DNA of 64,000 nt from Dissulfurimicrobium hydrothermale (GTDB lineage Bacteria > Desulfobacterota > Dissulfuribacteria > Dissulfuribacterales > Sh68): assembly GCF_022026155.1 (NCBI RefSeq), contig NZ_CP085041.1, forward strand, positions 962,306 through 1,026,305. Reading direction: 5' to 3'. Shown here piece after piece: positions 29,145 to 34,416 of the stretch. The position numbers and the translations under genes were made by a program. Position 1 is the first letter of the stretch; each line of letters opens with the position of its first letter. The notes beneath the pieces are model-generated. The model made no database searches and was not told where the DNA came from. It saw nothing but the letters and a program-made list of their open reading frames with translations.

Positions 29145-31286
29145 ATGTCAGAGAACGAAGGAAGGATTGAAAAACAGCTGGCCACAAAAACCGTTCGTCC
29201 AAATGACGCCCTGTTTATTGTGAATGCAAACTGCAAGGTCATATACTTCAATGAGGCCGCCAAGAGGTTTACAGGCCTTGGATTTGCAGACCTCATGGGT
29301 GCGGATTTCAAATCATTATTTATAAAGAAGGCCGACGAACAGCTTCCATGTATCTGTGATGATATACAGGCCGGGCGAGTTATTCGCAACCGCCGCGTAT
29401 TCTTTTCGGAGAAGGTCAGGAGAGAAAGGGAGGCCATGTTCATGACCGTCCTCCCTTGTTTTAACGAGGAAGACGGGTTTGATGGGGCGGTTGTTCTCCT
29501 CAGAAACTCTGTGGATGAGACTGTGATATCCGAGTTGGCCCTTGAGAGTATAGCAGATGGTGTATTTGCGGTGGACAAGGATTGGCGGATAAGATCGTTT
29601 AATTCTGCCGCGGAAAAGATTACTGGCTGGTCTAAAGAAGAGGCGATAGGCAAGCGGTGCAGCGAGGTGTTCCACTCAAACATATGTGAGGCCGGACATA
29701 TCCAAAAGGCGCTCGGGCAGATAGCGCGATGTTATCCGTTTAATACGGAGGTGTGTGAGACCAGATGCATCCTGGCCAAAAGCATCGAGATACAACGGCC
29801 TATAGCCAATGAAACCATCTTTATAAAGAGGCGGGACGGACGCAGTTTACCTGTTAGCATAAGCGCTGCGCCGCTCCTGGACAATACAGGGGACGTGATA
29901 GGCGGCGTCGAGACCTTCAGGGATATCACATCCGAGGTGGAGCGCAAGCTGATCCTTGAGAGCATAGCAGATGGGGTCTTTACCGTGGACAAAGATTGGC
30001 GGATCACGTCTTTTAATCGGGCCGCGGAGAATATCACGGGCTACACCGCCGAAGAGGCCATCGGTAGGCACTGTCATGAGATATTTCAATCGAGTATCTG
30101 CGGCGAGGCCTGTGCCCTTGCAAACAGCATAAAGAATAAGACCCCAGTACGCAACAGATCGATCTTCATAAGGCACAAGAGCGGCAAAAACATCTCGATC
30201 AGCATAAGCGCTGCGCCGCTCCTGGACAATACAGGGGACGTGATAGGCGGCGTCGAGACCTTCAGGGATATAAGCGCCATCATGACCCTCCGTAAGGAGA
30301 TCACGAAGCGCTATACATTCGGCGATATCATAAGTAAGAGCGCCATAATGAGAAGGAGGGTGTTTGATATCCTGCCTGATATTGCAAGGAGCGACAGCAA
30401 CGTCTTGATACTCGGTGAGAGTGGGACAGGAAAGGAATTGGTGGCCAGGGCCATTCACAATTTTTCGAGGCGCATGAAAGGGCCATTTGTGGCAGTGAAC
30501 TGCGGGGCGCTGCCTGACACCCTCCTTGAATCCGAACTTTTTGGCTACAAGGCTGGGGCCTTTACTGACGCAAAGAAAGACAGGCCGGGCCGGTTTGCTG
30601 CGGCGGAGAAGGGTACACTTTTTCTTGATGAGATAGGAGACATCTCCCAGGCCCTTCAGGTTAAACTCTTGAGGGTGCTCCAAGACAAAGTCTACGAGCC
30701 GCTCGGATCAAACAGGCCGGTGAAGGCCGATGTCCGGATATTGGCGGCCACGAATCGGGATCTCGGCGAACTAGTCAGGGAAGGCAGGTTCAGGGAAGAC
30801 CTTTATTACCGTCTGAACGTGGTAAAGATACAGCTTCCACCCCTTCGGGAACGCAAGGAGGACATCCCTCTTTTGATTGAGCACTTTATAGCGAAGTTCA
30901 ACGCCCAAAAGGAGAAGGAGATAACCGGGATATCCCAGGAGGCCGTCGATAGGCTTATGCAATATGACTTTCCTGGCAATATACGCGAGCTTGAAAATAT
31001 AATAGAATATGCCTTTATCCTTTGTCACGATGGAATGATCCAACTCCAACACCTGCCGGAGCCATTTTGTCAGAAGACCAATGAAGAGCTCTTGCCGGCC
31101 ATTGATTCAAACAAGCCGCTAGGCCTCGATGAAATAGAAAAGATCGCGATCACCAAGGCCCTTGAGCGCAACAACTGGCGGCGTCTGGCTACATGCAGGG
31201 AGCTTGGGATTTCAAAAGATACACTCAGGCGCAAGATCCAGCGTTACGGCATAGAGGCGCCGATAGAGGTGCCAGGAGAGGAATAG
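29145..31286 (+). CDS. PAS-domain sigma-54-dependent transcriptional activator
   Basis: A 713-aa regulator. Three PAS domains (about 15-110, 125-260, 265-375) are rich in Cys (SNICEAG, CETRCILA, SSICGEACALAN), which suggests redox or metal sensing. The AAA+ domain (about 395-630) has Walker A GESGTGKE, and GAFTDA in place of the usual GAFTGA loop, which contacts sigma-54. It also has Walker B LFLDEIGD and an arginine-finger region. A Fis-type HTH ends the protein (ELGISKDTLRRKIQRYG). PAS2 and PAS3 arose by duplication and share 71 identical bases. No receiver domain is present. A nearby target could be the operon at 32198. Confidence 0.93.
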   Translation: MSENEGRIEKQLATKTVRPNDALFIVNANCKVIYFNEAAKRFTGLGFADLMGADFKSLFIKKADEQLPCICDDIQAGRVIRNRRVFFSEKVRREREAMFMTVLPCFNEEDGFDGAVVLLRNSVDETVISELALESIADGVFAVDKDWRIRSFNSAAEKITGWSKEEAIGKRCSEVFHSNICEAGHIQKALGQIARCYPFNTEVCETRCILAKSIEIQRPIANETIFIKRRDGRSLPVSISAAPLLDNTGDVIGGVETFRDITSEVERKLILESIADGVFTVDKDWRITSFNRAAENITGYTAEEAIGRHCHEIFQSSICGEACALANSIKNKTPVRNRSIFIRHKSGKNISISISAAPLLDNTGDVIGGVETFRDISAIMTLRKEITKRYTFGDIISKSAIMRRRVFDILPDIARSDSNVLILGESGTGKELVARAIHNFSRRMKGPFVAVNCGALPDTLLESELFGYKAGAFTDAKKDRPGRFAAAEKGTLFLDEIGDISQALQVKLLRVLQDKVYEPLGSNRPVKADVRILAATNRDLGELVREGRFREDLYYRLNVVKIQLPPLRERKEDIPLLIEHFIAKFNAQKEKEITGISQEAVDRLMQYDFPGNIRELENIIEYAFILCHDGMIQLQHLPEPFCQKTNEELLPAIDSNKPLGLDEIEKIAITKALERNNWRRLATCRELGISKDTLRRKIQRYGIEAPIEVPGEE
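29856..29926 (+). repeat. 71-bp direct repeat, copy 1 (PAS2 end)
   Basis: Identical over 71 bases to 30201-30271. It encodes the end of the second PAS domain (SISAAPLLDNTGD and following). Confidence 0.95.
30201..30271 (+). repeat. 71-bp direct repeat, copy 2 (PAS3 end)
   Basis: Second copy, 345 bases downstream of the first and in the same frame; 345 is a multiple of 3, so loss by recombination would remove one PAS unit cleanly. Confidence 0.95.
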
Positions 31287-31464: not shown

Positions 31465-31812
31465 TTATGTATCATCGGTTGAGAAATCTATTTTGCCGCC
31501 GCACGTTTCGTGGATTTCAGGTGGGCATCCGGCGACCTTCCAGCAGGGCATGACCTCCAGAAGACGTTTTATCCCAGGGATGCTGATTCCTTCTTCGTGG
31601 ATCAAAGTGCGCAGACATGTTATCCATTGGATGTCGTTTTGTGAATAAAGCCTCCTGGCCCCGCCGTATTTAGGTCTTATCAGCCCTTCTGTTTCATATA
31701 TTCTGAGCGTCCTAGGATGCACGCCTATCATGCGCGCCGCAACCCCTATTGGATATATAGGAGTCTGCGGATCCGGGAAGTCGGTTTGTCTTTTGGGTCT
31801 GATTTTTGCCAT
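31465..31812 (-). CDS. MerR-family regulator with C-x5-C-x7-C motif (paralogue 1)
   Basis: A 115-aa MerR-type regulator. The winged HTH (about 18-85) reads YPIGVAARMIGVHPRTLRIYE, then EGLIRP and ARRLYSQNDIQWITC. After a short helix the C-terminus has PCWKVAGCPPEIHETC, that is C-x5-C-x7-C. With the Cys in WITC this gives four cysteines, all shared with the paralogue at 33845. These could bind a metal or Fe-S cluster, or react with sulfur species (inference). It is transcribed away from the NrfD operon, with a -35-like box and a perfect palindrome upstream that suggest autoregulation. Confidence 0.88.
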   Translation of the reverse strand: MAKIRPKRQTDFPDPQTPIYPIGVAARMIGVHPRTLRIYETEGLIRPKYGGARRLYSQNDIQWITCLRTLIHEEGISIPGIKRLLEVMPCWKVAGCPPEIHETCGGKIDFSTDDT

Positions 31813-31862
31813 TTCGCATTTTTATTTGTCTTAAATTTAAAAAAGTTGTAATTATTAATTCC

Positions 31863-31881
31863 TTTAATATTGAATATTAAA
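31863..31881. promoter_or_regulatory. Perfect 19-bp palindrome, candidate MerR1 operator
   Basis: TTTAATATTGAATATTAAA, two 9-base arms around a central G at 31872. On the minus strand it begins a few bases after a TTGACA box (31889-31884), so a bound protein would control merR1 itself. Confidence 0.45.
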
Positions 31882-31935
31882 ATTGTCAATATTTTTTAAA
31901 AAATTTTTATATATTTTATAAAGTCTATCATAATG

Positions 31936-31979
31936 GCGCAAAATGATCCCTTGATTTTTTAAAAAGGATCATTTTGCGC
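31936..31979. repeat. 14-bp inverted repeat with AT-rich loop
   Basis: GCGCAAAATGATCC (31936-31949) and GGATCATTTTGCGC (31966-31979) are perfect complements around a 16-base loop containing a T6A5 stretch. On the plus strand a T-rich stretch follows. It could be an operator, a terminator of leftward-originating antisense RNA, or the relic of a small mobile element. Confidence 0.85.
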
Positions 31980-32045
31980 TATATTTTTTATATAAAATGC
32001 AAATTAAATTGTAAAGTTCAGTTGCCAAATATTAAATTAACAAAA

Positions 32046-32065
32046 TGTAACATATTATTTTTACA
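32046..32065. promoter_or_regulatory. TGTAA-N10-TTACA dyad
   Basis: A short inverted repeat just upstream of the rightward promoter at 32072. It resembles the size of regulator half-sites, but could be chance in AT-rich DNA. Confidence 0.3.
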
Positions 32066-32071
32066 ATAAAA

Positions 32072-32102
32072 TTGTCATAAATAAACTGTCATAAGTTATA
32101 AA
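32072..32102 (+). promoter_or_regulatory. Candidate MerR-type promoter with 19-bp spacer
   Basis: TTGTCA (32072-32077) and TATAAA (32097-32102) are 19 bases apart. An over-long 19-20 base spacer is the hallmark of promoters activated by MerR-family proteins. The repeat TGTCATAA occurs twice here. It points towards the small membrane protein and NrfD genes. Confidence 0.45.
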
Positions 32103-32112
32103 ATTATAAAAA

Positions 32113-32126
32113 GGTATCCATCTTGC
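32113..32126 (+). promoter_or_regulatory. Alternative sigma-54-like -24/-12 element
   Basis: GG (32113-32114), 10 bases, then GC (32125-32126) within TTGCA. The -12 half matches well and the -24 half (AGGTAT) poorly. A sigma-54 activator gene lies nearby at 29145, which keeps the idea alive. Confidence 0.25.
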
Positions 32127-32197
32127 AATTTATATAAAACAAAGGACAAAAAAAACGAAAATGAGCCATAGATGAATTGGCTGAAAGGAGCCGAAAA

Positions 32198-32437
32198 ATG
32201 AGCGCCCTGACACTATTAGTCCAAAAAATAAATTTATATCTGAAAGATAGTCCGAGAGACAATACACAGACAAAAGATACAGAGGCTTTTAATTTCAGCG
32301 AGGCCTTTTGGTTCACTACGACATTTCTCCTTTTCCTTGCGCTCGGGCCTTTTTCGGCAATCGCTGTGGTCTTTGGGGTACTTTCCCTGGCCGGGAAGGG
32401 TGATGAAGGCAATGTACCATGTGAAGACTGCAATTAA
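32198..32437 (+). CDS. Small membrane protein preceding the NrfD-like gene
   Basis: A 79-aa protein I do not recognise. ATG 32198 has AAGGAG 7 bases upstream and is preferred over the frame opening at 32177. After a polar N-terminal half comes a long hydrophobic stretch (FWFTTTFLLFLALGPFSAIAVVFGVLSL), enough for one long or two short helices, and the end is GNVPCEDCN with a CxxC pair. It lies 33 bases before the NrfD gene, which has its own strong ribosome-binding site. It may be an accessory subunit, with the CxxC as a metal or redox site (inference). Confidence 0.75.
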   Translation: MSALTLLVQKINLYLKDSPRDNTQTKDTEAFNFSEAFWFTTTFLLFLALGPFSAIAVVFGVLSLAGKGDEGNVPCEDCN

Positions 32438-32470
32438 AAAATGAGAAAATAAATCTTAAGGAGGAAAAAG

Positions 32471-33658
32471 ATGGACACGACAAACGTATCGATCGGCTCA
32501 TTGGCTGAACAAAGGATGGCCAGCCCTGTGGTCAACAAACTCACACTGCTGTCATTCTTGCTGATGGCGGCCGGCCTGGGGACAGGCGTAGCTGGCTTTT
32601 TTGTAGGGCATCAGCATCTCTATGCGGTTACAAGAGATGTGCCGTGGGGGATTCTGATTTCTACCTATGCATTTTTCGCGATTACATCCACCGGACTCTG
32701 CCTGTTGGCAGCTATAGGCCATGCCTTCGGCGGGACCCCGGTGGCCCAGTTGGGGAACAGAGCGGTCTATCTCTCTATCATAACGATACTCTCTGCCTTT
32801 TCAGTCATCGGTCTTGAGCTTGAGAGCCCGTGGCGTATGCTTGTTTACAACGTAATCTCGCCCAATCTTACATCCAACATCTGGTGGATGGGTACACTTT
32901 ATGGCCTTGCCGTGGGCTGTATGTTCATCGAATTTATTGCCATATTAACGGGTAGGCTGGGCATGGCGTTGGCTATCGGTGCATTGGGTGCCTTGTCCGA
33001 AGTGGGTGCCAATACGAATCTGGGAGCTGTATTTGCAACACTCACCGCCCGCCCGTTCTGGTACGGGGCGCAGCTTCCGGTCTATTTCCTGTGTGCGGCG
33101 GTCATGTCAGGCGCAGCTGCAATAATACTTTTCACCTATTTGTCCTATAGGCTTAGGGGCGAAGAGGTAGACGATGGCACAATGTCGGGTATACGGAGTG
33201 CAGGCAAGGTGCTTCTTTTGACCATCTTTCTCCTGGCGGTGGCTACTGTGTGGAGAATCCTATCTCTATATACTGGAGGCTCCGAAGAAGGCATAATTGC
33301 CACAAATAACCTGCTTTATGGGCCTCTTTCTACCAATTTCTGGCTTTTTGAAACGGCGATTGGCATTGTGATCCCAATGGTCATCCTTGTCTTTACCCAA
33401 ATAAAGAGCATGCCTGCTATGGCGGCGGCTTCCCTCATGGTCCTTATAGGCGGTTTTTTTCAGAGGTATGACTTGGTGGTTGCAGGCCAACAGGTCCCCC
33501 TCTTTTACGGGTGGGATAATCTGCCGAGTTATGTGGGTTATGCGCCGTCTGCAGGCGAGCTTATGGTAGTCATGGGTGGCATAGGTCTTACTATGACAGG
33601 CTTCTTTATCGGAGAGAGGTTGTTTGGTAAGCTGTTCCGCCAGGCAGGACATCATTAA
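32471..33658 (+). CDS. nrfD: NrfD/PsrC-family quinone-interacting membrane protein
   Basis: A 395-aa integral membrane protein with about ten helices, related to NrfD/PsrC/HybB. The start of the family fold, DVPWGILISTYAFFAITSTG, is clear, followed by a conserved-looking ELESPWRM and SNIWWMGTLYG. Such proteins exchange electrons with the quinone pool and normally work with an Fe-S subunit and a molybdopterin or other catalytic subunit. Neither is encoded here, so this copy is an orphan. AAGGAGG lies 6 bases before the ATG. Sulfur or polysulfide chemistry is plausible but not shown. Confidence 0.88.
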   Translation: MDTTNVSIGSLAEQRMASPVVNKLTLLSFLLMAAGLGTGVAGFFVGHQHLYAVTRDVPWGILISTYAFFAITSTGLCLLAAIGHAFGGTPVAQLGNRAVYLSIITILSAFSVIGLELESPWRMLVYNVISPNLTSNIWWMGTLYGLAVGCMFIEFIAILTGRLGMALAIGALGALSEVGANTNLGAVFATLTARPFWYGAQLPVYFLCAAVMSGAAAIILFTYLSYRLRGEEVDDGTMSGIRSAGKVLLLTIFLLAVATVWRILSLYTGGSEEGIIATNNLLYGPLSTNFWLFETAIGIVIPMVILVFTQIKSMPAMAAASLMVLIGGFFQRYDLVVAGQQVPLFYGWDNLPSYVGYAPSAGELMVVMGGIGLTMTGFFIGERLFGKLFRQAGHH

Positions 33659-33728
33659 CTCTTAAATAGACAAATAGACAAGGTTCGGGCCTGGATAATC
33701 GGCGATTGCCCTGAAACGGCATGATGAG

Positions 33729-33757
33729 CAAGGGGTCCTTAAAATAAGGACCCCTTG
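33729..33757 (+). terminator. Strong hairpin between the NrfD and merR2 genes
   Basis: CAAGGGGTCCTT (33729-33740), loop AAAAT, AAGGACCCCTTG (33746-33757): 12 perfect pairs. No T run follows, so it may be a partial terminator, a processing site that sets expression of merR2, or a protein-binding site. Confidence 0.5.
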
Positions 33758-33809
33758 TAGAGATTAGGATTGCGTATAAAAAGACTGAAAAAGATTTCGG
33801 GCAGGCGAC

Positions 33810-33839
33810 GTCACAGAGATAAGGGTCACAGAGATAAGG
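33810..33839 (+). repeat. Tandem duplication of 15 bp before merR2
   Basis: GTCACAGAGATAAGG occurs twice with no gap. The second copy supplies the AAGG that probably acts as the merR2 ribosome-binding site. Confidence 0.9.
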
Positions 33840-33844
33840 ATGGT

Positions 33845-34264
33845 ATGCACATGGTCACAATGACAGAAGAGGTCCAAAAAAGGTCGAGACACATTGACGA
33901 TACAGGGTCAGGTCCCGTTGAAACGGAACTTTGGCAGCCCATTGATAATGTAGATCCGGACAAGCCTATCTTTTCCATCGGGGCTGCGTCAGCCATGCTG
34001 GAGGTCCATCCTCGAACGCTTCGCATCTATGAAGAGGAGGAATTGATAAGGCCGACGAGACGTGGCCAGCGACGTTATTATTCCCTTAATGACATACAGT
34101 GGATAACATGCCTGAGGTCGATGATACACGACCACGGGGTTAGCATAGCCGGTCTCAAGAAACTGTTGCAGTATACAGCCTGTTGGAATATAGTGAAATG
34201 CCCTATGGAAAAGAGGAAGGTATGTACGGCCTATCATTCACTGGGCCTACTCCATGACAGGTAG
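33845..34264 (+). CDS. MerR-family regulator with C-x5-C-x7-C motif (paralogue 2)
   Basis: A 139-aa paralogue of the gene at 31465. The HTH region has FSIGAASAMLEVHPRTLRIYE, EELIRP, RRYYSLNDIQWITC and SIAGLKKLLQ. The end has ACWNIVKCPMEKRKVC, the same C-x5-C-x7-C spacing as paralogue 1. The N-terminus is longer and polar. ATG 33845 or 33851 follows AAGGA; an upstream TTG at 33770 is less likely. It lies after the NrfD gene and a hairpin, and 8 bases before a tiny membrane-protein ORF. Two paralogues flanking the operon may compete for the same operator. Confidence 0.85.
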   Translation: MHMVTMTEEVQKRSRHIDDTGSGPVETELWQPIDNVDPDKPIFSIGAASAMLEVHPRTLRIYEEEELIRPTRRGQRRYYSLNDIQWITCLRSMIHDHGVSIAGLKKLLQYTACWNIVKCPMEKRKVCTAYHSLGLLHDR

Positions 34265-34272
34265 GTTCTTTT

Positions 34273-34416
34273 ATGCAAGACATCCTGTTGCTCATCTTTA
34301 TTGTCATCGTATGGTTCGGTATCAACCGCTGGCTGCTTCCAAGGTTTGGTGTACCCACCTGAGCTGCCCCTTCTTGCGAGATCGGGTCTCGGTCTAAAAA
34401 GAAAGACAAAAGATAA
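34273..34416 (+). CDS. Candidate small membrane selenoprotein (UGA read-through)
   Basis: ATG 34273 has AGG 7 bases upstream and begins 8 bases after merR2. The first 29 codons give one membrane helix (DILLLIFIVIVWFGINRWLL) and then PRFGVPT, up to TGA at 34360. If TGA is read as selenocysteine, the frame continues U-A-A-P-S-C (U30, C35) and a basic tail (SRSKKKDKR) to TAA at 34414, 47 residues in all. A hairpin of SECIS type begins 8 bases after TGA. The U-x4-C pair could form a selenenylsulfide at the membrane face. Without read-through it is a 29-aa membrane peptide. Selenium use is supported by yedF only. Confidence 0.5.
34371..34403 (+). promoter_or_regulatory. Candidate bacterial SECIS hairpin
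   Basis: Lower stem TTCTT (34371-34375) with AAGAA (34399-34403), an internal loop, upper stem CGAGA (34377-34381) with TCTCG (34387-34391), and apical loop TCGGG. The apical loop begins 20 bases after the TGA. A T-G wobble pair would leave a CGG loop with G near its start, as bacterial SECIS elements prefer. Confidence 0.45.

Follow-up and report, generated by a model that had tools for sequence, protein, structure and literature searches.

A split NrfD-MerR redox module and the predicted selenoprotein family SelX in Dissulfurimicrobium hydrothermale

The NrfD locus of Dissulfurimicrobium hydrothermale Sh68, a sulfur-disproportionating bacterium, is probably one half of a conserved redox module that is split in this genome, together with a gene, selX, whose product would be a real selenoprotein. 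The window, which is the whole stretch of 64,000 nucleotides analysed, shows a PAS-sigma54 activator gene followed by two merR genes, which flank a small membrane protein gene and nrfD, and by a TGA-containing ORF (Table 1). The positions given to the last five genes in the initial annotation were all confirmed, and its observation as a whole, as well as its interpretation, stood in part. The pathways of sulfur disproportionators and Desulfobulbia are still incomplete; in both groups, the module offers a candidate route, open to testing, for electrons between quinones and periplasmic cytochromes.

Table 1. Features of the NrfD locus (positions are those of the window)
Feature	Position	Strand	Remarks
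PAS-sigma54 transcriptional activator, 713 aa	29145..31286	+	Pfam PAS and Sigma54_activat
MerR1, HspR-like MerR regulator	31465..31812	-	Pfam MerR_1; W-x-x-C and C-x5-C-x7-C
20-nt inverted repeat, 90%	31933..31982	.	z -7.5; AT-rich divergent intergenic region
Candidate sigma-54 promoter AGGTATCCATCTTGCA	32112..32127	+	GG-N10-GC core retained; weak
Small two-helix membrane protein, 79 aa	32198..32437	+	No Pfam family; homologues adjoin NrfD
NrfD-family membrane subunit, 395 aa, ActC-like fold	32471..33658	+	PF03916
Perfect 13-bp hairpin, nrfD-merR2 gap	33729..33757	.	z -7.2; terminator-like without U-run
MerR2, HspR-like MerR	33851..34264	+	W-x-x-C and C-x5-C-x7-C; longer TTG start at 33770 possible
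SelX, predicted 47-aa single-TM selenoprotein, MQDILLLIFIVIVWFGINRWLLPRFGVPT-U-AAPSCEIGSRSKKKDKR	34273..34416	+	
In-frame TGA, predicted to be read as selenocysteine	34360..34362	+	Conserved in all SelX copies inspected, none Cys
bSECIS-like hairpin	34363..34402	+	Candidate stem AGATCGG/TCGGTCT, loop GTC ~26 nt after UGA

The NrfD module and its distribution

The search found 309 relatives, and 76 loci were kept. The usual gene order is NrfD2-MerR1 / NtrC(-) / FeS-Cyt-small-NrfD-MerR2, where FeS is a ferredoxin, Cyt a cytochrome and NtrC the PAS-sigma54 activator, itself part of the conserved module. Among the 48 loci with enough upstream DNA, FeS, Cyt and NtrC are each present in 37, homologues of the small protein adjoin NrfD also in 37, and NrfD2 is present in 34. 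In D. hydrothermale the module is split: genes encoding the ferredoxin, the cytochrome, NrfD2 and a MerR are on the same chromosome 145 kb away from the NrfD locus, at 847.6-851.2 kb. NrfD2, the usual partner of MerR1, is absent beside it and is found at chromosome 849757-850869 with its own MerR. The FeS partner in this genome is 71% identical and has 250 aa, and the cytochrome, of 127 aa, matched the triheme c7-type domain TIGR04257 above cut-off.

The initial annotation had taken NrfD for an orphan, with no Fe-S subunit and with a proposed activity of an unusual kind linked to quinone. No FeS gene lies near NrfD within the window and to that extent the description holds, but genome-wide a ferredoxin, a triheme cytochrome and a second NrfD are present, and the ferredoxin is found in 40 of the 40 NrfD-bearing genomes among 394 (Fisher p 9e-49). 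An orphan NrfD is therefore highly improbable, and was ruled out by the genome search and this co-occurrence. The partners of NrfD are encoded elsewhere, but its MerR genes are not unrelated to it, because a MerR gene is directly 3' of NrfD in 67 of the 73 loci with enough downstream DNA. The proposal of a conserved redox unit is supported, with its NrfD protein, its MerR regulators that bear Cys and a selenoprotein that is real, with the reservation that the selenoprotein is phylum-wide and not specific to the unit.

NrfD belongs to the NrfD/PsrC superfamily by its score against PF03916 (94.2 bits; gathering cut-off, 25.8). Its predicted model (pLDDT 81.6) shows the best fold similarity to ActC of alternative complex III (Z 36-37), followed by ActF (Z 27), and has the PsrC-type helical fold of 2vpw_C (PsrC with menaquinone; Z 21.9 over 244 residues). 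The fold list contained ActC, ActF and PsrC and lacked DsrP, HmcC and other NrfD-family structures, an absence that is not exclusion, and a PDB sequence search with NrfD gave no match. The small membrane protein shows a conserved core, LGPFSAIAV. Its C-terminal CxxC is peculiar to this locus: none of the 59 homologues examined has the motif in its last 20 residues, and the small protein was rejected as a CxxC redox partner.

Regulators and promoter of the NrfD operon

The cysteine pattern shared by the two MerR proteins, noticed in the initial annotation, is real: the motif is in 44 of 45 MerR1 and 76 of 76 MerR2 orthologues, the cysteine of W-x-x-C is 100% conserved, and the pattern is therefore not due to chance. 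Their HTH domains score best with HspR-type MerR repressors (70.4 and 62.3 bits with NF047375), but both proteins are below the 105-bit cut-off of this model and differ from those repressors by the conserved C-x5-C-x7-C and W-x-x-C. The PAS regions of the activator contain C-x8-C-x3-C/H motifs, and its best NCBIfam model was PrdR, below cut-off.

In 62 of the 86 relatives the NrfD operon has a strong sigma-54 site, TGGCAY-N5-TTGCW, on its upstream side, and upstream of FeS, NrfD2, NtrC and MerR2 there were 0-2 sites, none beyond chance. A sigma-54 promoter controlled by the activator, whose PAS domains carry cysteines, probably drives the small-nrfD-merR2 operon, and the two HspR-like regulators would tune expression through their conserved cysteines. 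The site of the window scores 9.1, under the threshold of 12.5; this weak site and the split of the module speak against the joint explanation for this genome. The inverted repeat upstream of the operon could be terminator-like or a candidate binding site. Neither this repeat nor a conserved palindrome was seen upstream of the NrfD operon in the eight relatives checked, Rfam gave no match at gathering threshold, and no paper pairing NrfD with MerR in sulfur disproportionation was found in the literature searched.

The SelX family and UGA recoding

The SelX family contains single-TM proteins of 45-60 aa with the motif LP(K/R)xGxxT-U-xxxx-C. The search sample included 394 genomes of one phylum, Desulfobacterota, and 60 relatives, and SelX was found in 165 of the 394 (~40%). 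All copies inspected retain the in-frame UGA, with Cys in none of them; the Sec-position TGA is present in the copies listed and in eight weaker, unlisted ones that were re-checked. SelX shows no relevant Pfam or NCBIfam family at E<=10. It resembles the catalogued prokaryotic selenoproteins in UGA recoding and in the hairpin after the codon, and has no evident counterpart among the 119 families of the 2026 catalogue (PMC13188914). SelX is most probably a real selenoprotein made by UGA recoding, and the possible selenoprotein first noticed in the window is confirmed far beyond that locus. If a family carried by about two fifths of a major phylum's sampled genomes has no Cys forms, it would suggest a role that cysteine is unable to take over.

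Across 70 SelX sequences, synonymous recodings fold less stably than the native bSECIS-like hairpin after the UGA (mean z of the native hairpin -1.26, with 63 of the 70 below zero; p ~1e-18), and the GG-type loops of this hairpin are mostly 18-26 nt after the UGA. This genome contains a tRNA-Sec(UCA) at 118714-118807 and a SelB over cut-off at 1821225, and recoding would use both together with the hairpin. The hairpin of the window copy alone is not significant, as expected if translation simply ended at the TGA to give a hydrophobic peptide of 29 residues, with a coincidental reading frame downstream, but more than 70 divergent copies show protein conservation to either side of the TGA, the UGA is invariant and the hairpin is held against synonymous recoding, which makes an ordinary stop scarcely credible. 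Decoding of the UGA as cysteine in some lineages by a selC*/SelB* tRNA-Cys system has a precedent, since a selC* tRNA-Cys whose anticodon is UCA is known from Desulfobacterales (PMC7609411), but it is very unlikely: the selC*-like tRNA of this genome has a GCA anticodon and is unable to read UGA, and the normal tRNA-Sec is present.

Whether SelX works with the NrfD module is a closer question. Among 35 genomes of the same order, SelX adjoins the module in 25, next to NrfD-MerR2 in nine and next to FeS-Cyt in 16; which of these two operons of the module it adjoins differs between families of the order. SelX is also enriched in NrfD genomes (27/40 vs 138/354; p 7e-4, phylogeny not corrected for). 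Against these data, 13 of the 40 NrfD genomes, mostly Desulfobulbia, lack SelX, and in 40 other families the SelX neighbourhood contains no conserved neighbours (nothing common to more than six loci, nothing close), so that the tie to the module may be local. As a sulfite-reduction gene, SelX was set aside, since its association with dsrA is too weak to matter (86 of 148 SelX genomes vs 88 of ~202 others; odds ratio 1.8, sample membership approximate). It is quite possible, at somewhat less than an even chance, that SelX, although a real selenoprotein, is a passenger: its gene, occurring on its own across the phylum, would have an unrelated job and lie beside one or other of the operons by chance in this order. 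Outside the order SelX stands alone, so that a functional connection with NrfD, though plausible, is unproven.

By the positive-inside rule, the single helix of SelX would place U-x4-C and the basic tail in the cytoplasm. SelX is probably a relay bound to the membrane, either for selenol/thiol redox or for persulfide, and it may serve the quinone module in this order. A further and rather unlikely proposal is that SelX is a Sec-obligate family, spread over Desulfobacterota and without Cys counterparts, which in Dissulfuribacterales would be a functional membrane selenol of a menaquinol-cytochrome module and would connect the quinone pool with thiols or persulfides of the cytoplasm in sulfur disproportionation.

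Electron flow and likeness to known systems

The complete module would contain two ActC/NrfD-type quinone subunits, an exported four-cluster ferredoxin, a periplasmic triheme c7-type cytochrome and the small membrane protein. It is most likely a menaquinol:cytochrome c oxidoreductase, which would exchange electrons between menaquinol and cytochromes of the periplasm in the manner of alternative complex III or NrfBCD; gene content, co-occurrence, promoters and fold are observed, and from them we infer both the complex and its direction. FeS-NrfD pairs operate in both directions in known complexes, and the gene set leaves the direction unfixed. The module could therefore run in reverse, as in Qrc, with periplasmic donors (H2, formate or sulfur species via cytochromes) reducing menaquinone, a possibility to which we give about one chance in three in favour; two NrfD, a ferredoxin, a cytochrome and an ActC fold are, however, closest to the quinol-oxidising alternative complex III, and no cytochrome-reducing hydrogenase or formate dehydrogenase was found beside the module in those loci that were read completely.

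With alternative complex III (ActABCDEF), the module shares two NrfD-type subunits, a multi-cluster ferredoxin and a c-type cytochrome; the NrfD-type subunits and FeS are encoded together at most loci and split here. The module differs in its sigma-54 and MerR control, in its stand-alone ferredoxin, whereas FeS in ActB is fused to a large molybdopterin-like domain (chains of 933-1039 aa), and in its small triheme cytochrome, whereas ActA is pentaheme. It also resembles FeS-NrfD pairs of the NrfBCD, DsrOP, TtrBC and PsrBC types, since the best-scoring models for FeS were TtrB, NrfC and DsrO and NrfD is in PF03916, but all equivalog scores are below cut-offs: FeS with NrfC (173/378) and DsrO (172/200), and NrfD with NrfD TIGR03148 (37.4 bits vs 347.6), DsrP NF045798 (15.7 vs 350) and HmcC NF045714 (31.4 vs 550). 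The dsrOhPh-tetrahaem locus of cable bacteria, compared by description, likewise contains FeS, an NrfD-type protein and a small c-type cytochrome, and is proposed to transfer electrons from quinone to the periplasm, but it has a tetrahaem cytochrome, one NrfD and a cable-specific TMH1, with no MerR mentioned (PMC13047784). The canonical DsrMKJOP is annotated elsewhere in the D. hydrothermale genome (PMC8780430).

Conservation of the NrfD module and its distribution in two regions

The window is part of the single 2,025,450-bp chromosome of D. hydrothermale, whose strain Sh68 is an obligate sulfur disproportionator from Kamchatka with a published chromosome of 2,025,450 bp (PMC8780430); the main text of that genome paper mentions neither NrfD, MerR nor selenoproteins. 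All the genes of the initial annotation are present at the positions given there (table).

Features of the window and of other chromosomal regions (G000:C1, D. hydrothermale chromosome; L, loci read)
Feature	Coordinates	Strand	Description
NtrC	29145-31286	+	PAS-sigma54 activator
MerR1	31465-31812	-	
Hairpin	31933-31982		very stable (z about -7), between the divergent genes, at the point where NrfD2 is absent
Sigma-54 candidate	32112-32127		weak, sole remaining in the window
Small protein	32198-32437	+	79 aa
NrfD	32471-33658	+	
Hairpin	33729-33757		very stable (z about -7), between nrfD and merR2, no U-run
MerR2	33851-34264	+	
SelX	34273-34416	+	47 aa, single TM, TGA at 34360-34362; MQDILLLIFIVIVWFGINRWLLPRFGVPT-U-AAPSCEIGSRSKKKDKR
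Module half	847.6-851.2 kb		FeS, cytochrome, NrfD2, third MerR with Cys motif
nuo-adjacent region	G000:C1:842-851 kb (L090:10-9309)		FeS-Cyt-NrfD2-MerR directly 3' of nuoK/L/M/N-like genes
Third NrfD-like gene	G000:C1:465-470 kb (L091:2308-7163)		next to a multiheme CxxCH cytochrome gene and long ORFs that may encode outer-membrane barrels; transposase adjacent
FeS + NrfD-type pair	G000:C1:1107772-1109612 (L004, L084)		distinct from DsrOP
tRNA-Sec-shaped tRNA	G000:C1:1461214-1463225 (L161, L153)		Cys anticodon GCA; region shared with a second SelB-like gene

The species-genome search for NrfD gave 309 relatives and 76 loci were kept, nearly all of Deltaproteobacteria or Desulfobulbia, with type strains including Desulfobulbus rhabdoformis, D. 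elongatus, Desulfogranum japonicum and D. mediterraneum. The proposed nrfD-merR neighbourhood holds, a MerR gene being immediately 3' of nrfD in 67 of 73 testable loci. Among the 48 loci with at least 7.9 kb of upstream DNA, 37 show a TAT-type ferredoxin (FeS), 37 a CxxCH cytochrome (Cyt), 37 the PAS-sigma54 activator (NtrC), 35 MerR1 and 34 a second NrfD-type protein (NrfD2). The most frequent order is NrfD2-MerR1, NtrC on the opposite strand, and FeS-Cyt-small-NrfD-MerR2. Thus NrfD, initially regarded as an orphan, has conserved partners, and across 394 phylum genomes FeS is present in 40/40 genomes with a close NrfD and in 46 overall (Fisher p 9e-49, a statistic that ignores phylogeny). In D. 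hydrothermale, one half of the module (NtrC, MerR1, small gene, NrfD and MerR2) is in the window together with SelX, and the other near 850 kb, where FeS shows 71% identity to that of D. rhabdoformis and about 0.9 kb between the cytochrome and NrfD2 contains no obvious gene. Relatives L115 and L125 still have all of these genes, SelX included, at one site.

The C-x5-C-x7-C motif and W-x-x-C cysteine described for the MerR pair were confirmed, and since 44/45 MerR1 and 76/76 MerR2 orthologues keep them, they are a selected feature. The CxxC ascribed to the 79-aa membrane protein is found near the C terminus in none of 59 homologues, which share an LGPFSAIAV core between helices.

Putative function and regulation of the module

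FeS scores best with the TtrB, NrfC and DsrO models, all under cut-off, NrfD and NrfD2 are under the cut-offs of the NrfD, DsrP and HmcC models, and the cytochrome shows a triheme c7-type domain above cut-off. By fold, the best match of the AlphaFold2 model of NrfD (pLDDT 81.6) is ActC of alternative complex III (Z 36-37, 2.5 A, 374 residues), with ActF (Z 27) next and then PsrC with bound menaquinone (Z 22); the general arrangement is also that of cytochrome bd subunits (Z 19-23). Alternative complex III likewise has two NrfD-type subunits, a ferredoxin and a c-type cytochrome, but its molybdopterin-like domain is absent from the module. Because of this parallel subunit set, the module is taken as a putative menaquinol:periplasmic cytochrome oxidoreductase, for which we infer complex formation and direction. 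The third NrfD-like locus is a possible extracellular electron conduit.

Of 86 loci, 62 have a sigma-54 -24/-12 site (TGGCAY-N5-TTGCW) upstream of the small-NrfD operon. The reverse strand gives 2 such sites, and the DNA 5' of FeS, NrfD2, NtrC or MerR2 gives 0 to 2. Given these sites and the adjacent activator, sigma-54 control of the operon is the best reading. The PAS regions of the activator contain C-x8-C-x3-C/H motifs, which may bind a metal or an Fe-S cluster.

The SelX family and its UGA codon

The possible selenoprotein noticed at the end of the unit is reinforced by its homologues, which keep the in-frame TGA and a hairpin signal after it. About 39 confident homologues were found in 60 relatives, each with one in-frame TGA, and 153/394 phylum genomes contain SelX by consensus query and 165/394 by a 29-row profile, mostly in one copy. 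Among the matches listed, all confident ones have TGA, and additional TAA or TAG codons come from matches extending beyond the C terminus; eight of the weaker genomes outside that listing were re-searched and read, and in the one row stopping short of the site the next codon is TGA. One genome (G187; L229, L230) has two copies, both with TGA. No Cys form was found among the copies inspected, despite queries bearing Cys at the Sec position.

SelX sequences from dozens of families have in common a W within the helix, LP(K/R)xG and a T/S preceding U, usually with a C at the fifth residue past U. In the 29-row alignment P, G and U never vary, and W, T and C are almost invariant. One sub-lineage has UGAPVDAGR without Cys, and therefore the selenol may act alone there. 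Copies without this Cys (PSUGAPVDAGR or a near variant) are at L118, L128-L130, L135, L137, L138, L143 and L144, and some of them show a second partial motif match shortly downstream. No relevant Pfam or NCBIfam model matched (E up to 10), and the 119-family selenoprotein catalogue of 2026 (PMC13188914) has no evident equivalent; a family so small and lacking Cys homologues could be overlooked. An earlier description is possible, as the literature check covered open-access papers. The genome search covered Desulfobacterota.

In same-order genomes, SelX is downstream of NrfD-MerR2 (or NrfD) in 9/35 and of FeS-Cyt in 16/35; its position beside either of two module operons points to a functional link in this order. 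SelX is not a required subunit, since 40 other families show no shared neighbours and module-bearing Desulfobulbia are without it. The positive-inside rule places it N-out, C-in, and it may be a cytoplasm-facing selenol/thiol relay.

In 70 non-redundant SelX sequences, with pooled codon usage, the 39 nt after UGA are more stable than protein-preserving recodings (mean z -1.26, 63/70 below zero, p 1e-18); the hairpin of the window is not significant alone. The apical loops are mostly GG-type, about 18-26 nt downstream of UGA, resembling bacterial SECIS elements. The genome encodes tRNA-Sec(UCA) and SelB. It also contains the GCA tRNA, after 2-hydroxyacyl-CoA-dehydratase-type genes and directly before a second SelB-like gene, a pair resembling the selC* tRNA-Cys system (Mukai et al., PMC7609411).
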